From positions 1-39,700 of the forward strand of contig DASRDP010000122.1 in the NCBI GenBank assembly GCA_035652535.1: a DNA stretch of 39,700 nt. The letters are read 5' to 3'. How positions within the stretch are numbered: the stretch's first letter is position 1; each line of letters begins with the position of its first letter. A program made the position numbers and the translations under genes. Source of the DNA: Chloroflexota bacterium (GTDB lineage: Bacteria > Chloroflexota > UBA6077 > SHYK01). Of this stretch, positions 7,904 to 38,326 are shown one piece after another. The notes beneath the pieces are model-generated. The model saw only the letters and a list, made by a program, of their open reading frames with translations, was not told the origin of the DNA and did no database searches.

Positions 7904-9115
7904 ATGGAACCGGACGCAGCCGAGCGGGCCCTACCCGCGTTCTCTCTGGCGGAACGAGACCGGCGGTGGGGCCAGGTGCGCGAGCTCATGGCGCGGGATG
8001 GCATCGACGCACTGGTCGCGCCACCCAACACCGGCGGCAACGAGCGTAATCAGGCCGACGCACGCTACCTGACCCAGTATGGCATGAACGGCGAGCAGAT
8101 CGGCTGCGTGTTCCCCTTGAACGGCTCCGTCATTGGCTTCGGCGGTCCATCCTCTCGATTGGTGACCGGCTGGATCGACGACGTGCGGAACCCCCGCCGC
8201 ACCTTCAACGAAGCCATCGTCGACGCTCTCAAGGAGCTGGGCGTCGAACACGGCGTGATCGGCGTCTGCGGGTTACAGCCAAGCAAGTACAACCTGATGC
8301 GTGTACCGGACGGGGTCGTGGGCGCAAATCTGTTGGATCTGATGCGCCAGACCTTCCCCGCGGCGCGGATCGTCAGCGCCACGAATGTCACCGGCGAGGC
8401 GCGCATGACCAAGAGCGCGGAAGAAATTGCCTTCCTCGAACGGAGCACAGCAATTGCCGAGGCCGGGCTCGACGCGTTGCTCGAGACAGCGCGGCCGGGC
8501 GTTCGGGAAAATAGCTGCTACGCGGCGATGATCAAGGCGGAGATCGAGCAGGGCGCCTCACTGCCCTTCAAGCTGTCCTGGGAGTCCGGCCCCGCGGGCC
8601 ACCTCTACGAGCGCCTCACCCATGCAACCCGCCGGGTGCTGCGCGATGGGGATCTGATCATCAACGAGATCGAAGGGAACTGGGGTGGGTACATGGCCCA
8701 GATCGACACGTCGATCTATCTCGGCCACACGCCCGCTGACTGCCAGGACGCCTGGAAGGTGGCGACGGACTCATTCGAGCGCACGGTCGCGACGATGCGC
8801 CCCGGCCTGACCTTCGGGGAGCTGTTAGAGACGTGCGCAGCCACCCCGGTGGTTGGGGGATGGGGGGCCCGCCTCATACTGCACGGCCGCGGTTTGGGCG
8901 ACGAGGGGCCGCTCATCACCTTCCCTCCATACGATCCCGAAGTGACCGCGCGGCCTCTCCAGGAAGGAAACACGTTCATCATTAAGCCTCAGGTGAGACG
9001 CGAGCGCGAGGGGAGCATGGCCATCTTCGGCGACACGGTCACGGTGACCGCGACCGGCGCGCGACGATTGGGGAAGCGCCCGACCGACTTCGCAACGTAC
9101 CACATCGTGGCCTAA
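7904..9115 (+). CDS. M24 (Xaa-Pro peptidase/creatinase-fold) protein with lost metal ligands
   Basis: 403 residues with the two-domain creatinase/prolidase layout: an N-terminal creatinase-N-like domain (about 15-160) and a C-terminal pitta-bread domain (about 175-395). The five metal ligands of M24 peptidases (Asp, Asp, His, Glu, Glu) appear as Glu255, Gln266 (or a shifted Asp268), His327, Lys361 and Gly376. Only the histidine, in LHGRGLG, is clearly kept; the second active-site histidine of the HE-x-P motif is Asp333. This points to a metal-independent enzyme of creatinase type or a non-catalytic relative rather than an aminopeptidase. Start ATG 7904 has GGGGAGGAAG just upstream. It is convergent with the binding-protein gene at 9177. 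Confidence 0.88.
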   Translation: MEPDAAERALPAFSLAERDRRWGQVRELMARDGIDALVAPPNTGGNERNQADARYLTQYGMNGEQIGCVFPLNGSVIGFGGPSSRLVTGWIDDVRNPRRTFNEAIVDALKELGVEHGVIGVCGLQPSKYNLMRVPDGVVGANLLDLMRQTFPAARIVSATNVTGEARMTKSAEEIAFLERSTAIAEAGLDALLETARPGVRENSCYAAMIKAEIEQGASLPFKLSWESGPAGHLYERLTHATRRVLRDGDLIINEIEGNWGGYMAQIDTSIYLGHTPADCQDAWKVATDSFERTVATMRPGLTFGELLETCAATPVVGGWGARLILHGRGLGDEGPLITFPPYDPEVTARPLQEGNTFIIKPQVRREREGSMAIFGDTVTVTATGARRLGKRPTDFATYHIVA

Positions 9116-9176
9116 CCGCGCCGTAGCGTCAGCCATCGTGCTGCGGCGTCGTCGTTCGCGTGCATCCCGTCCGCGC

Positions 9177-10316
9177 TTAACCGCCGATGCCAGCGGTGGC
9201 CACGAGGCGTTCCTTTGGCTCTATTGCGCCGAGACTCTCGACGATTTCAAAGTGGCCACTGTGAGCCTGGGCGATGTACATGTTCATGCGCACGTGGTGC
9301 TGGCCGGGCACCATCGCCGCCGGCCCACCCGGACCCTGGGGAATCTGGGCGTGATCCAGCGCTGCGATGACATCCGCCTGCGTGAACGAAGCCGCCTCAG
9401 TCACCGCGGACGCCCATAGTCGGAGACCACGGTACAGGCCGGAACAGGCACTACCGCCGGTGAACTTCACGCTACCGGGATAGAGCGCTTCATACTGCGC
9501 GAGCAGCTTCTGACTGAAGGGATCCCTGACGGTTTGATAGTAGTCGAGGCAACTGTACAGCCCCTCCACGTGGGCCGCGGGCACCATATTCAGGAAGTTC
9601 TCATCGAAGTAGGTGCAGACCAGATGTCCACCGCCTCCGGTGAAGCCTGCGTTGTGGAGCTGCTCGAAGAACGGAGTGACGCCAGGCGGTACGATCGTGT
9701 TGAAGACCACGTCCGCCTGGCTCGAGATGATCTTCTCGACGGTCGCGCGGTAATCCGTGTGATCGAGGGGAAAGTACTCCTCCCCGACAACCGAGCCGCC
9801 GTGGGCGGCCACCACCTCTCGGATCCTGCTGTTCATCACGTGGGGCCAGATGTAGTCGGCCGACGGTAGGTAAAAGCGCTTCGCCCCGGTTCGTTGCATC
9901 AGCCAGGGAATGAAGGGATCCACTTGCTGTGCGGGCACCGGGCCCGTACAGAAGATGAGTGGGTCGGATTCCTGCCCTTCGTACTGTTCCGGGTAGATAT
10001 AGAGCGTCCGGCCTTTGACCACGGTCGGTCCCTTGATGGCCTGCCTAGTGGAGCTGTAGATGCCGCCGAAGATGACGTCGACGTGATCCTGCTCCACCAG
10101 CTTTTTCGCTTTGGCCGCGGCGACGGAATCGTTCGTCTCACTGTCCTCGACGTACAGCTCCAGATTCCGCCCTCGCAGACCGCCTTTGCCATTCAAGTCG
10201 CCGACGACCATCCTCGCCACGTTGGCGTTGGCGAGCCCCACGAACGAGAGGGGCCCGGTCAGGTCCGCGATGAGTCCCACCTTAACTGAAAGATCGTTTG
10301 ACGGTCTTGTCGCCAT
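9177..10316 (-). CDS. AmiC/UrtA-like ligand-binding protein without signal peptide
   Basis: 379 residues, type 1 periplasmic-binding fold (Leu/Ile/Val-, amide- or urea-binding group). Marks are VGLIADLTGPLSFVG near the N-terminus, VIFGGIYSSTRQA, IYPEQYEGQ (compare the YP-x-QYEG of amide- and urea-binding proteins), and EYFPLDHTDYRATVEKI. ATG 10316 follows GGGAGAGC; neither this start nor the longer frame to 10439 carries a hydrophobic leader or lipobox. The protein should therefore be cytoplasmic, as AmiC of the Pseudomonas amidase operon is, and may act as a ligand sensor. The divergent neighbour is an HD-GYP/LuxR regulator, which fits a sensor role. A missing leader through misassembly is less likely, because upstream sequence in frame is not hydrophobic. 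Confidence 0.88.
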   Translation of the reverse strand: MATRPSNDLSVKVGLIADLTGPLSFVGLANANVARMVVGDLNGKGGLRGRNLELYVEDSETNDSVAAAKAKKLVEQDHVDVIFGGIYSSTRQAIKGPTVVKGRTLYIYPEQYEGQESDPLIFCTGPVPAQQVDPFIPWLMQRTGAKRFYLPSADYIWPHVMNSRIREVVAAHGGSVVGEEYFPLDHTDYRATVEKIISSQADVVFNTIVPPGVTPFFEQLHNAGFTGGGGHLVCTYFDENFLNMVPAAHVEGLYSCLDYYQTVRDPFSQKLLAQYEALYPGSVKFTGGSACSGLYRGLRLWASAVTEAASFTQADVIAALDHAQIPQGPGGPAAMVPGQHHVRMNMYIAQAHSGHFEIVESLGAIEPKERLVATAGIGG

Positions 10317-10432
10317 GAGTCTGCTCTCCCACAACACGTTTGTTGCTGGCGCGGGCCAGCGTTTACGATGGTCCGTGTCGTACGCATGATGCGGCCCGCA
10401 AAAGGCCCCGTACATCGGGAGAACTCCCCATT

Positions 10433-11986
10433 TTGACAACCCCGCTTCGCCTCGGTGAGCTGATCGCCACGCTAGCGCTGGCGCAGGACAATGCGTTTGG
10501 CCAGCCGCTTGAGTCGCAGCTGCGCTCGTGTCTGCTCGCGACGTGGATGTGCGCTGCCGCGGGATTCGACAAACAGGTGAGCGAGACCGCCTACTGGGTA
10601 GCCCTGCTCCGATATGTCGGCTGCACCGGTCACGCGCACGAGGTGGCCACCGTGTTCGGTGACGAGATCGCCATTCGTGGCCAGACGCTAATCCACGACG
10701 CGGCGAATCCCGCGGAAGTCATGCGCGATGTCGTAGCCTTCGCAACGGCCGGTCGTGCCCAGGAAGAGCGCGACGGAATCATTCAGATGCTCCAGCACAC
10801 GGCCCACGAGTGGGCCGTGTACAACTTCTCGTCCGGGTGCGAGGTCGCTGACATGCTCGTGCAGCGGCTCGATTTCGGCGCCGGCGTTCGCGAGGCGCTG
10901 GGTTTCACGTTCGAGCGCTGGAACGGCAACGGTTTTCCCGCCCATGCGCACGGCGATGCGATCCCGCTGGCGATGCGGGTCGTTCACCTCAGCCACGACA
11001 TGGAGGCGATCGGCCGCCTCTTCTCGCCCGACCATGCGATTGAGGCAGCTCGTGATCGGCGCGACCGGACCTACGACCCCGCGCTCGTCGATCTCTTCGT
11101 TGCGAACGGACATGGCTGGTTCGATCAGCTCAGCGCGAGCGAACCGTGGGATGCCGTGCTGGCCCTCGAGCCCGCGCCACGACGCTTCCTCGATGGCGAA
11201 GCGCTCGATAATGCCCTGCTGGTCGCGGCGGACTTCATCGATCTGAAGTCGCCGTACATGGGCGGGCACAGCCGCGGTTGCGCGCGGCTCGCAGCCGATG
11301 CCGCTCGCGTCCTCGGCTTCGACGAGGACGCCATCGCCATGGTCCGACGGGCCGCGCTCGTGCACGACTTCGGCATCACCGCAGTGCCGAACTCGATCTG
11401 GGACAAGCCAGGCGCGCTCACGCGTACAGAGTTCGATCGCGTCGAGCTTCACCCGATGCTAACCGAGCAGATGCTGCGCCGCTCCCCTGCTCTGGACGCG
11501 CTGAACCCCATCGCTTCCGCCCACCATGAGAAATGCGATGGCTCGGGCTACCACAAGCGCGTACATGCGGACGCCGGCGATCCCAGCGCGTGCGTGCTTG
11601 CCGCGGCGGACGTCTACATTGGGCTCACCTCGGAGCGAGCGGACCGCCCGGCCTTTTCGCCGTCGCGGGCCGCGAGCGAGCTGCGTCGCCTCGGCACTCG
11701 CGGCGTGCTCGAGTCGCGCGCTTGTGACGCAGTGCTGGTCGCGGCCGGGCACAGTGAGCCGGCGACCACCGGCAAGCGCCCGCGGCTACCGGGTGGGCTG
11801 TCCCGACGCGAAGTCGACGTGCTGAGTCTCGCCGCGCGCGGACTGACGACGCGACAGATCGCCGACCGGCTCGTCATCTCGACCAAGACAGCGGATCACC
11901 ACATCCAGCACATCTACGGCAAGATCGGGGTATCGACGCGCGCCGCGGCCGCGCTCTGGGCCATGGAGCAGGCCGTCGTCCGCTGA
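10433..11986 (+). CDS. HD-GYP domain protein with LuxR-type DNA-binding C-terminus
   Basis: About 517 residues. Two HD-GYP-like modules are followed by a LuxR/NarL helix-turn-helix. The first module (about 50-195) is degenerate: ERWNGNGFP stands where HHE-xx-DGxGYP is expected. The second (about 275-430) keeps H279, the HD pair 311-312, H340, HHE 364-366 and DGSGY 369-373, so it may still hydrolyse c-di-GMP or a related nucleotide. The C-terminal LSRREVDVLSLAARGLTTRQIA and ISTKTADHHIQHIYGKIGV are the LuxR HTH. No ATG or GTG is usable: TTG 10433 has GGGAGA 12 bases before it, while a TTG at 10340 would overlap the divergent promoter region. It probably regulates nearby genes in response to a nucleotide or ligand. 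Confidence 0.85.
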   Translation: MTTPLRLGELIATLALAQDNAFGQPLESQLRSCLLATWMCAAAGFDKQVSETAYWVALLRYVGCTGHAHEVATVFGDEIAIRGQTLIHDAANPAEVMRDVVAFATAGRAQEERDGIIQMLQHTAHEWAVYNFSSGCEVADMLVQRLDFGAGVREALGFTFERWNGNGFPAHAHGDAIPLAMRVVHLSHDMEAIGRLFSPDHAIEAARDRRDRTYDPALVDLFVANGHGWFDQLSASEPWDAVLALEPAPRRFLDGEALDNALLVAADFIDLKSPYMGGHSRGCARLAADAARVLGFDEDAIAMVRRAALVHDFGITAVPNSIWDKPGALTRTEFDRVELHPMLTEQMLRRSPALDALNPIASAHHEKCDGSGYHKRVHADAGDPSACVLAAADVYIGLTSERADRPAFSPSRAASELRRLGTRGVLESRACDAVLVAAGHSEPATTGKRPRLPGGLSRREVDVLSLAARGLTTRQIADRLVISTKTADHHIQHIYGKIGVSTRAAAALWAMEQAVVR

Positions 11987-34287: not shown

Positions 34288-34940
34288 CTAGGGCATCCGC
34301 GTCGTGGCCGGTAACAGCGCAATCCGCCTCCTCAGGGCACCGGGTACCGCTTGACCGTTTTCGCCGACTGTGATCTGAAGCCTCGACTCCCATTGACACC
34401 CAACCTCGTCAGCGTAGGTGACGACCAGTGCGAAGCATTCACCCGGCGATACTGGTGGCGGCACTATTTGTCGGACCACTCTACTGGTTCCATCAGACGC
34501 GGGAAAGTCGGTGGCGACCCGGACGGGCGCTGCGTTACCAGGTTCTACGCGCGCTTGAATGTCCACAGCGAAGCCGCCCGACAGACTCGGCATCCAAGTA
34601 ACAAAGGAGATCTCCCTCCGGTCGACCAGACTTCCGGTGAGAGCAACCATAATGACGGGGTCCGTTGGCTGAGGCGCTCTGAGCAGCATCGGGTCAGGGC
34701 TCTGGCGGTTGGACTTGCCAACTCGCCGATAGCCGCTTAAGTTCTGCATCGGCACCGCGACGCCGGGACGCATGGGCTGCGAGCTGAACAGATACATTCC
34801 AGCGACCGGCGGGCGATCGGGCCATACCGCCAGGCGAAGGACAGTTTTGCCACTTTCGTGTGTAAGCGTATCAACACACTCCTCCAGCCGAATAGGTCCA
34901 CTGGACCTTGGATAGTCGGACTGACTTGCTTGTCCGTCAA
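34288..34940 (-). pseudogene. Unrecognised beta-rich protein, start removed by IS5-family element
   Basis: The first Met in the frame is at 34797, but the frame stays open and protein-like well before it: SQSDYPRSSGPIRLEE, CVDTLTHESGKTVLRLAV and VWPDRPPVAGMYLFSS. No ATG, GTG or TTG occurs in frame between 34797 and the transposase end, so the true start appears lost. The C-terminal part includes SFVTWMPSLSGGFAVDIQARVEPG and CFALVVTYADEVGCQWESRLQITV, a likely beta-sandwich. I do not recognise the family. Bases used at third positions suggest real coding sequence. Confidence 0.5.
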
Positions 34941-35666
34941 ACGAGATAGCGACGAATCCGAGCGAGTGAACCTCCGAGACGCTCGCCGGCAGAACGGCGA
35001 GTAATGCGGACCAGGTTGTAGGCGGTTGCGACCAGACGGCCCAACAGCCCGGTTCGGTCCGAACCCCGGTAGCGGGTGCGACGGAACCCGCCGATGGTCT
35101 TCATCCAACCGAAGATCTCCTCGACCCGCTTGTGAATGCGCTGGCTGATCCGATAACCATCATGGCGAGTGGTCCTTCCGTCGATGGCGCTTCGCCGACC
35201 GCTGGTGTTCTGGGCCCCGTGGGGGGTGACCTTGCGCTTGCGCAGGTCTTTCACACAATCACGCGTGTTGTAGTCCTTGTCGGTGGCCAGGATCTTGGGG
35301 CGAAGCCGCCATTTCTTGGCGCGGTCCAGCAACTCCGGGACCGCATCCCGCTCCGCCGTGCCGGTGGCCTCCGAGACCAGGAGATCGACCAGGATCCCAT
35401 TGCGGTTCCCCATCAGGGCGTGAGCCATGAACACCAGCTTCGCTACTTTCCCCCGGCCCTTGCGCAGGAGGCGGGCTTCCGGATTCGTCGTGCTCCGGTG
35501 GGTGGCGGTCGAGCGCTTCTTGCCGTGGAAGTCCACCGATGGATTGCCTGGGTCATCATCGGTGCTCTTGGACGGCTTCCCATCGCGTGGCGTGAAGCTC
35601 TTCAGACTGGCCGCTGCCTCGATCAGCGTCCCGTCCACCGGGAAGTGCTCATCGGAGAGCAAACCC
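34937..35666 (-). mobile_element. IS5-family transposase, 5'-truncated
   Basis: About 240 residues of the C-terminal catalytic part of an IS5-family DDE transposase. LLSDEHFPVDGTLIEA holds the first Asp, ILATDKDYNTR the second, and HKRVEEIFGWMKT the Glu, so the triad is complete. Homology stops abruptly at GLLSDEHF (about base 35664). The N-terminal DUF772-type half, about 100 residues, is missing and replaced by the XRE-type gene on the other strand. The element is therefore dead, unless supplied in trans. Terminal inverted repeats could not be found by eye. Confidence 0.85.
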
Positions 35667-35667
35667 C

Positions 35668-35967
35668 GCCCAAGCTCAAGAGCTGCGGGCACAGCTGGCT
35701 GAGTATGAGGCGCTGCGGGCCGGTCGGGTGGCCGTGCTGGAGTTGAACTCCCTGAAGGATCTACCGGAAGCGCTGATCCGGGCGCGCACCGCGAGCGGCC
35801 TGTCGGAGAAGCAGCTGGCGGCTCGTCTCGGGATGAAGGACCAGCAGCTTCAGCGGTGGGAGTCTACTCGCTACGCAGGGATCAGCCTCGACCGGATTCA
35901 GGCGGTAGCGCTCGGCGTGACGATTCGCGAAGAAGTCATTCTCCCTGCGCGGCCCGCCGCCGGCTGA
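35668..35967 (+). pseudogene. XRE-type helix-turn-helix protein, 5'-truncated
   Basis: From about 35671 the frame reads QAQELRAQLAEYEALRAGR, a helical stretch, then LPEALIRARTASGLSEKQLAARLGMKDQQLQRWESTRYAG, a clear XRE/Cro HTH, and ends at 35967. Homology to this kind of protein (usually about 120-130 residues with an N-terminal coiled coil) starts in mid-helix right where the transposase homology ends. About 30-40 residues are lost. GTG 35728 could still start a shorter HTH protein of 79 residues. Such HTH proteins commonly act as antitoxin-like or autoregulatory DNA-binding proteins. Confidence 0.75.
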
Positions 35968-36019
35968 AGTCCGTTAGGACTGTGGTGGCGAGCGCACTGG
36001 GTGCGGAATCGATCCGTTC

Positions 36020-36936
36020 GTGGCGGATCGTGCCCGTCGGCTGTGGGAATTCATCGTTCAACCGCTTCTCGAGAGGGAGAACTTCGGAAGCGGTCAGGCG
36101 TGGTTTGGTTTCGTCGATATCGGCGGGGGCACCGGCGCCCTGGCCGGTTCGCTGTGCGCATCCGTCGCCGATTGGTCAGGCCAAGCCGGCTTCGATCCCC
36201 GATTCCGCCTCGCTCTGGTTGTTGACATCTGCCGGACGACCACCTCGCCGATCCTCTCCGAACCCGAGTTGGCACGGCGCATCGACGCAATTACGCACAT
36301 CGCGCTGGACTATCGGGCGTGGCTGGCAGGTAGCAGCAGGCAGACCGTTTTCCCGTCTCGGCGCGGCCTTCGCTTCGGACTCGCGTGCAAGGTCTTCGAC
36401 ATGGCCAGCCAGTTCGTCGTTCAGTCGTTCCGTCGAGGCGACCTGCCGGGCCTCCGGCGGCCACTGAGTGGTTCAGTCCCGAAGACCGTTCGCCTCTGGC
36501 CTGTCTGGCTCCGCGTGGTCGCGGACCTGAGGAGCTCATGGTCTCTCCGCTTCGCTTCCAGGTCGCGGACGGGCACGTGTTCGCCCAGCCGGCCCTGTCA
36601 GACTATTTCGCCGCGCTCGCGTCGACCTCAGAGGGTCAAGCGCCCGGCCTCGAAGGCTCTGTGTCGCTCCCAGTTCGGGTTTTTGATCCGGCCACGCTGG
36701 TTACGACCAGGGGAACGAGTGTGCTCGGCGAGATGATGCACCGCGTTGATTACCTGGTGATCGAGGATGCGGACCTCCGCCCGCGTGCGTTGCTGGCGCA
36801 CCTCCGACGCTTCGATGTCAGCGACATCGTAGTATTCGCCATGACGTCTACGATGCGGCTGACTGGAAACTATGCCTACGTTCCGCTGAGGCGAGGCGAC
36901 CTGCTGCCTCGACTGGAGGGTGATCGGCTTGCTTAA
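36020..36936 (+). pseudogene. Frameshifted gene with methyltransferase-like glycine motif
   Basis: Frame A (36020 to about 36450) reads RRLWEFIVQPLLE, then FGFVDIGGGTGALAGSL, which resembles SAM-methyltransferase motif I, and ALVVDICRTTT. Near 36450 it must pass into frame B, where ATEWFSPEDRSPLACLA and VDYLVIEDADLRPRALLAHL continue to the stop at 36936; the end of frame A and the early part of frame B both lose coding character beyond the junction. About 300 residues in total. I do not recognise the family. The only in-frame start is GTG 36020 without a ribosome binding site, so the 5' end may also be damaged. It overlaps the radical SAM gene. Confidence 0.6.
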
Positions 36937-37345
36937 CACCCTTGGCCGTCCTTCACGTCTATCATCGCCGAGGGTCCCCTCACCTAGGCTTGTCCGCAGC
37001 CGAAGCGTCCTTACACCGGCCAGTGGTTTCCTCTACGCCTTCACGCACACCCTCAACTCATACATGGGCTGTGCCTGGGGCGCCGGCGGGTGCGGGATCT
37101 ACTGCTACGTGGCGGAGTCGCCCATCGGCTTGTACGCTCGCCATCCATGGGGGCACTGGCTCAACGCCAAAGCGAATGCGGCTGAAGCGCTACGCACCGA
37201 TCTGGCTTCTATTAAGGATCGTGGCGCGGTACGGGTGTTCATGAGCTCAGCCACGGACCCGTATCAGCCGGCCGAGCGCAAGCTCCACATCAGCCGATCG
37301 ATTCTCGAGGTCTTCCGTGAGCTGCCGGTCGGCTTGCTTGTCAAG
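36929..37345 (+). pseudogene. Radical SAM protein (SPL-like), 3'-truncated
   Basis: Starts at TTG 36929, eight bases after GGAGG (GTG 36920 is an alternative), overlapping the previous gene. FTHTLNSYMGC leads into a C48-x6-C55-x3-C59 cluster motif as in the spore-photolyase-like group with GCxxGxxxCGxxCY. WGHWLNAKANAAEALR and VFMSSATDPYQPAERKL are further family marks. Homology ends at VGLLVK (about 37341), where the ISL3-family transposase sequence begins in a different frame. Roughly the last 150 residues are missing. Relatives are enzymes of unknown substrate, some acting on nucleic acids. Confidence 0.75.
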
Positions 37346-37670
37346 CGTCAACGAAGACCGTGTTCTCGCCGAAGATGCAGAGCTGGCACAGGGATGTGAG
37401 CTGCTGGAGCGGTTCCAGCAGCTTGTGCGCGAGCGGGACCGGGCGGGGCTGGACGGCTGGCTCGCGGCCGTCCAGGAGAGCGGATTGGCGCCATTCCAGT
37501 CCTTTGCGAACGGGCTGCAGCGAGACCGGGCGGCGGTGGACGCAGCCCTCACCCTGGAGTGGTCCAACGGTCTGGTGGAGGGCCATGTGCACCGGCTGAA
37601 GCTGATCAAGCGGCAGGGCTACGGCCGGGCCAAGATCGACCTGCTCCGCCGCCGCGTGGTCGCTGCCTAA
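37346..37670 (+). mobile_element. ISL3-family transposase, 5'-truncated
   Basis: The frame from about 37346 to the stop at 37670 gives the C-terminal 108 residues of an ISL3-family DDE transposase: AELAQGCELLERFQQLVRERD, then LEWSNGLVEGHVHRLKLIK and QGYGRAKIDLLRRRVV. The S-N-G-x-x-E-G segment carries the catalytic Glu. The zinc-finger N-terminus and both Asp residues are missing. The left edge is the junction with the radical SAM gene. Confidence 0.82.
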
Positions 37671-37732: not shown

Positions 37733-38326
37733 ATGGCGCTGGACAACGTGCCCAACCCGGCTTTCGGCACCCGCGGGCTCTACGTCAGCATCGTCAGCGC
37801 CCTCGGCGCGATTCCGCGTGGCTTCCGGGCCGAGTTGATGGCTCAGGCCCAGGGCCTCCTTGCTGCTGAGGAGCAAGAACGCCGCCGCAGGGTGGTCCTC
37901 GTCGTGGACGAAGCCCACCTGCTCACTCCTGAACAGCTCGAAGAGCTTCGCCTCTTGACCAATGCCGAGATGGACTCGCAAAGCCCCCTGGCCCTGCTCC
38001 TGGTTGGCCAGCCAACCCTGAATCGCCAGCTCCGCCTGGGCGTCTTCGCCGCACTCGATCAGCGGATCGCCATGCGCTACCAGCTCACCGCCATGGACCT
38101 CGGCGAATCCGTCCAGTATCTCCGCCACCATCTGGCTCTCGTCGGCCGGGCCGACCCGCTCTTCGCCGACGATGCCATCGCCCGCCTGCATCAGGCAAGC
38201 CTCGGCCTGCCGCGCGCGCTCAATAACGCAGCCATCGCCGCCCTCATCGCCGCCGCCAGTGCCGGCAAGACCCTGGTGGACGACGAGTGCGCCAGGAAAG
38301 CCGTCGCCGAGATTACTCGCGACTGA
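37733..38326 (+). pseudogene. ExeA/TniB-like AAA ATPase, N-terminus missing
   Basis: 198 residues from ATG 37733. VVLVVDEAHLL is Walker B, ALLLVGQPTL the sensor region, FAALDQRIAMRYQLTAM has the arginine-finger segment, and GLPRALNNAAIAALIAA the C-terminal helix. Homologous ATPases are about 270 residues, and the first 75, with the Walker A P-loop, are absent: sequence similarity begins at NPAFGTRGLYVS. ATPases of this group are encoded with transposases, where they assist target choice. It is probably the rest of a further mobile element rather than a secretion ATPase. Confidence 0.8.

Follow-up and report, generated by a model that had tools for sequence, protein, structure and literature searches.

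Mom modifies adenine in DNA, and TcmP (TIGR04474) is the methyltransferase-like partner of DUF5131-type three-Cys proteins. The ssrA-specific islands of Dehalococcoides carry an integration module comprising the DsiB recombinase, ParB and Mom (PMC3146451); 15 of these islands occur without the module and were considered by the authors to be possible cis-mobilizable elements (PMC3146451). Here, we compare damaged genes in a 39,700-nucleotide stretch of Chloroflexota DNA (the window) with intact relatives, and find that a protein family lacking annotation, which we call mid, and a spore photoproduct lyase (SPL)-like radical SAM protein (rSAM) are encoded by a real recurring unit. Intact copies with two readable flanks are usually islets of 4–5 kb with low GC content that adjoin a tRNA or tmRNA gene and have direct repeats at their boundaries.

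A sequence-only reading of the window had described three tightly packed genes on the same strand, for an XRE-type helix-turn-helix (HTH) protein, a protein with a GGGTG motif and an SPL-like radical SAM protein, all of them damaged and enclosed by an IS5-family and an ISL3-family remnant. Each part of this description holds (Table 1). The HTH gene is a fragment whose HTH_3 match falls within the open reading frame at 35728–35967, with in-frame sequence extending back to 35668. Homology to mid is spread over two frames (35990–36451 and, in the alignment to the intact 527-residue homologue, 36406–36894), which places a frameshift near 36.41–36.45 kb; residues 1–217 are gone, and what remains is the C-terminal 60% of a ~530-residue family. 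The frame-3 continuation upstream of 35990 is only apparent and was dismissed as coincidence, and no second mid copy was found in the source genome. The open reading frames of the second mid fragment and of rSAM overlap (36920 versus 36936), and rSAM, which aligns over 36986–37360 with an intact 301-residue homologue (E 1e-59), is truncated by the ISL3 fragment. The window copy has lost the mid N-terminus and acquired a frameshift, with IS remnants cutting both ends. Shortly past the ISL3 fragment, the remnant of an AAA ATPase (AAA_22; partial TIGR03015) at 37739–38326 represents more transposon-like debris.

Table 1. Features of the window locus and the matches by which they were recognized.
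Feature	Coordinates	Strand	Evidence
IS5-family transposase remnant, N-terminus missing	34937..35692	-	NF033581 E 2.6e-38, profile positions 109-285 of 285
XRE-type HTH gene fragment	35668..35967	+	PF01381 (HTH_3) E 1e-7; neighbour, outside recurring unit
mid fragment 1, methyltransferase-like motif region FVDIGGGTGALAG	35990..36451	+	P0008 residues 218-367, 45% identity, E 3e-35
mid fragment 2, different frame, conserved IEDADLRPR and GNYAYV motifs	36406..36936	+	P0008 residues 358-513, 55% identity, E 1.4e-47
SPL-like radical SAM gene, 5' part, atypical CX6CX3C CAWGAGGCGIYC	36920..37342	+	P0009 residues 8-132, 74% identity
ISL3-family transposase remnant, C-terminal 107 aa	37344..37670	+	NF033550 E 1.4e-30, positions 263-369 of 370

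What kind of protein is mid? Pfam, NCBIfam, PADLOC and PHROGs contain no entry for the family, and the fragment in the window matches nothing in them. As had been anticipated, intact homologues exist elsewhere: when 301 genomes of the phylum were surveyed, a single clear relative emerged (45% identity), located in G290, where an intact mid gene of 527 residues is followed by an intact rSAM gene of 301 residues. A profile search of 294 genomes added G399, G389 and G403, and in G452 a degraded copy. Scanning GTDB contigs returned nothing with a two-row alignment and seven loci with a five-row alignment, namely L027, L028, L029 and L032 together with copies of three of G399, G389, G403 and G452, all from Chloroflexota. 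Weak matches in G219 (within a long unrelated frame), in G062 and at a second place in G290 (both short) were rejected as chance, and no relative reached significant scores in phages, plasmids or viral contigs (viral-contig scans; tblastn against phages and plasmids).

Class I SAM methyltransferases are characterized by a Rossmann core and a motif I of the form D/ExGxGxG. The mid family conserves a D(I/L/V)GAG(S/T)G motif, which reads DIGGGTG in the window copy. In the AlphaFold model, which is weak overall (mean pLDDT 53; 73–94 in the best core blocks), the core contains this SAM motif and a methyltransferase-like strand order, its strands being well predicted. Fold matches were non-significant (best E 0.005, nothing in the PDB passing E 0.001) and mixed methyltransferases, phosphoribosyltransferases and others, many of the weak ones being class I methyltransferases; a PDB profile search gave a single, chance-like match to an RNA ligase. 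The earlier label ‘methyltransferase-like’ is weakly supported: the motif is conserved and the core strands are well predicted, but no fold or profile match is significant.

In all ten genomes in which mid was found (that of the window, G290, G452, G399/L026, G403/L031, G389/L030, L027, L028, L029 and L032), the gene after mid encodes an SPL-like rSAM. At intact loci of the type with rSAM_A, the rSAM start overlaps the mid stop by 7 bp, and six loci (L026–L030 and L032; in L030 and L032 the contig ends within mid) have a four-gene operon encoding mid, rSAM, a ~215-residue protein of the ParB_N type and a small 134-residue protein. The second form, mid with rSAM_B, is that of the window, G290 and G452, and ParB and the small protein are absent from the latter two. 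The small protein matches no known family, has no relative in viral contigs or, by tblastn, in phages and plasmids, and gave a structure model too poor for use (pLDDT 46); the profile used did not relate it to the protein of 149 aa found in ssrA modules. No plasmid relative of ParB was found by tblastn, which for this protein covered plasmids only.

The intact rSAM partners belong to the radical SAM superfamily, matching PF04055 (E 1e-8 to 2e-11) and carrying a three-cysteine cluster motif. This motif is CX3CX2C in rSAM_A and an atypical CX6CX3C in rSAM_B, the relatives of which have CX3CX2C. The two types of mid partner form separate, fully supported clades in a tree; rSAM_B groups with stand-alone plasmid rSAMs of Bacillota, whereas rSAM_A has a long branch that limits the exact placement of its own clade. 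A close rSAM_B relative in G566 stands alone, without mid. The pairing of a single mid family with rSAMs from two lineages speaks for a functional connection between the partners. At its C-terminus, rSAM_A (L026–L032) has a conserved extra CxC...C motif, as in CACKNPDLARGTCNIAG, with a weak match to DUF1848, and this is possibly a second metal site. Elsewhere in the superfamily, an rSAM gene of a Runella conjugative plasmid (L012, 4409–9251) belongs to a single run of genes with those for an HTH protein, the N and C parts of HipA and a UvrD helicase.

Where does the unit reside? ARAGORN, with confirmation by Rfam, placed a tRNA-Asn gene upstream of the L026 operon, a tRNA-Met gene directly downstream of that of L027 and a tmRNA gene upstream of that of L029. 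The other end of the L027 operon bears a 53-bp, 98% copy of the 3′ part of tRNA-Met, and after the operons of L029 and L026 come, respectively, 17 bp that exactly repeat the 3′ end of the tmRNA and 12 bp that repeat the 3′ end of tRNA-Asn. Random control 40-mers reached the observed repeat in 0 of 2000 cases each for L027 and L029 and in 22 of 2000 for L026, which makes the latter weak by itself. In G290 (L007, 8093–13306), mid–rSAM and an AbiEi–AbiEii pair lie within 126-bp, 88% direct repeats, with the 3′ half of a tRNA at one end. There are hence three strong islets (L027, L029 and L007), one weak (L026) and one negative locus (L028, with neither tRNA nor repeats nearby), while the contigs of L030, L031 and L032 end too soon for judgement. 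The GC content of the islets is 4–9 points below that of their flanks, and no recombinase gene was found inside these repeat-bounded intervals. Both 3′-end repeats on either side and compositional contrast, as expected of a tRNA/tmRNA-integrated island, are thus seen in intact relatives, whereas the window copy has IS remnants at its ends. Like the ParB and small-protein genes, this setting is visible only at intact loci, beyond the reach of the sequence-only reading.

Several of these loci have further features. Beside the G290 islet, a second pair of tRNA 3′-end repeats (L007, 7331–7360 and 8055–8084) surrounds a lone cupin-like gene, which suggests tandem insertions at one tRNA site. The AbiEii of G290 has an added WYL domain, and AbiEi–AbiEii are divergent from mid–rSAM. 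In L031, the rSAM gene is immediately followed by a CRISPR array with six or more repeats (CTTTCAGTACCCTAAGCGCGGGTCGATAGGCTGCAGG; 8795–9235), located where the contig ends, and the four-gene operon of L028 is followed at a distance of ~3 kb by genes for a macro-domain (DarG-like) protein and DarT (8964–10882).

Searching with a ParB profile gave full-length relatives in three genomes that are Dehalococcoides-like in size and gene content. There they adjoin serine recombinases and proteins of the Mom family (PF25680; E 8e-56 to 4e-68 for the three tested), two of the loci being next to smpB. In hhalign, the ParB of the operon and the Mom-linked ParB aligned end to end over 201 columns (99.6%, E 1.3e-24). 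These ParB–Mom–recombinase loci are the integration module of the Dehalococcoides ssrA islands (PMC3146451). Since mid–rSAM occupies Mom's place beside a homologous ParB, a DNA-modifying pair is suggested. As the rSAM_B subtype comes without ParB and the small protein, this argument reaches the window only via the homology of mid.

Our preferred reading, which we put forward tentatively, is that mid–rSAM, together with ParB and the small protein where present, may be a module for DNA modification that travels on hitch-hiking islets. A SAM-binding, methyltransferase-like mid and rSAM would modify DNA jointly, with ParB as their putative DNA-binding partner, and the modification might enable the islet, its helper or the host to resist restriction or phage. 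The islets themselves would be cis-mobilizable, relying on recombinases that act in trans, an explanation already proposed for those Dehalococcoides ssrA islands that lack an integrase. The stronger version, namely that mid and rSAM constitute an undescribed radical-chemistry pathway of DNA hypermodification which marks hitch-hiking tRNA/tmRNA islets, in the role that Mom has in related islands, is possible but doubtful. The sequence-only reading had proposed a nucleic-acid modification or defence/repair module; modification survives as the best-supported guess, whereas PADLOC gave no convincing match for mid, rSAM or the small protein, and the SPL match stays below its cut-off.

The main rival, which we consider unlikely, holds that mid–rSAM is anti-phage or abortive-infection effector cargo and not the source of a DNA mark. 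Defence genes do keep the unit company at three loci (AbiEi–AbiEii in the G290 islet, DarT and the macro-domain gene near L028, the CRISPR array beside the L031 rSAM). However, this company differs from locus to locus, three islets carry nothing more, no toxin-like domain was found, and PADLOC recognized no known anti-phage system, its output for ParB being only an overlap of the ParB domain with MTase_II models. Alternatively, the substrate of the pair could be the small protein or an RNA, such as a tRNA or a tmRNA, rather than DNA: many radical SAM enzymes and methyltransferases work on tRNA or peptides, and the small protein belongs to no known family. We regard this as improbable, given that DNA is the target indicated by ParB as the partner and by its relative next to Mom.

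The SPL family repairs thymine dimers, and a repair module, in which rSAM would reverse a base lesion with mid as an accessory, would fit the good match of rSAM_A to the PHROG profile ‘DNA repair photolyase’ and one plasmid rSAM relative that adjoins Ada, MGMT and a DNA glycosylase. Yet the Pfam SPL profile (PF20903) is matched weakly, at an E of only 0.04 and 13 bits versus a cut-off of 27, repair genes do not recur in mid loci, and tRNA-bounded islets are not the usual sole home of such genes, so that we grant this explanation a slim chance. That the HTH, mid and rSAM genes make up a single system, as their tight packing in the window invites one to think, is very improbable, for no such HTH occurs at the nine other mid loci and mid residues 1–217 are lost at the HTH junction. 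The functional unit of three genes suggested earlier, for which recurrence in other genomes was the proposed check, stands for the mid–rSAM adjacency, which extends to ten genomes within Chloroflexota, and falls for the HTH. The latter is a chance neighbour outside the unit, abutting mid because mid lost ~217 residues on that side, and the tight spacing is most simply a deletion product. The best relatives of this HTH on plasmids correspond to interior segments of XRE proteins of ~480 aa, neighboured by DUF4186 and hypothetical proteins.

With this, the unannotated mid family can be assigned a constant partner, an operon and a mobile setting. If DNA is indeed modified, a radical-SAM route would be added to DNA modification, and the islets would show how very small, integrase-less islands secure their own protection or that of the host. 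The ParB–Mom link renders the DNA-modification idea directly testable.

How does the unit relate to described systems? Like mid, TcmP is a methyltransferase-like protein beside an rSAM-like one, but mid is not TcmP, having no NCBIfam match to TIGR04474 and an hhalign probability of 0.2%. MidA/NDUFAF7-like methyltransferases (PF02636) gave a sub-threshold mid match (E 0.12), and MidA structures were among the weak fold matches, none of this being significant. For the radical SAM partner, the best matches were PA0069, Rv2578c and rSAM_mob_pairB (NF033668, NF038135 and TIGR04470), all far below curated cut-offs, and rSAM_B differs from them in its CX6CX3C versus CX3CX2C motif. The Dehalococcoides ssrA islands share with our islets the phylum, tmRNA 3′-end repeats, a homologous ParB and, in some, the absence of an integrase (PMC3146451), and the L029 repeat matches the published ssrA-repeat primer of these islands (PMC3146451). 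In contrast, the modification gene is Mom there and mid–rSAM here, and the mid–rSAM islets, of only four genes, are also found at tRNA-Met and tRNA-Asn.
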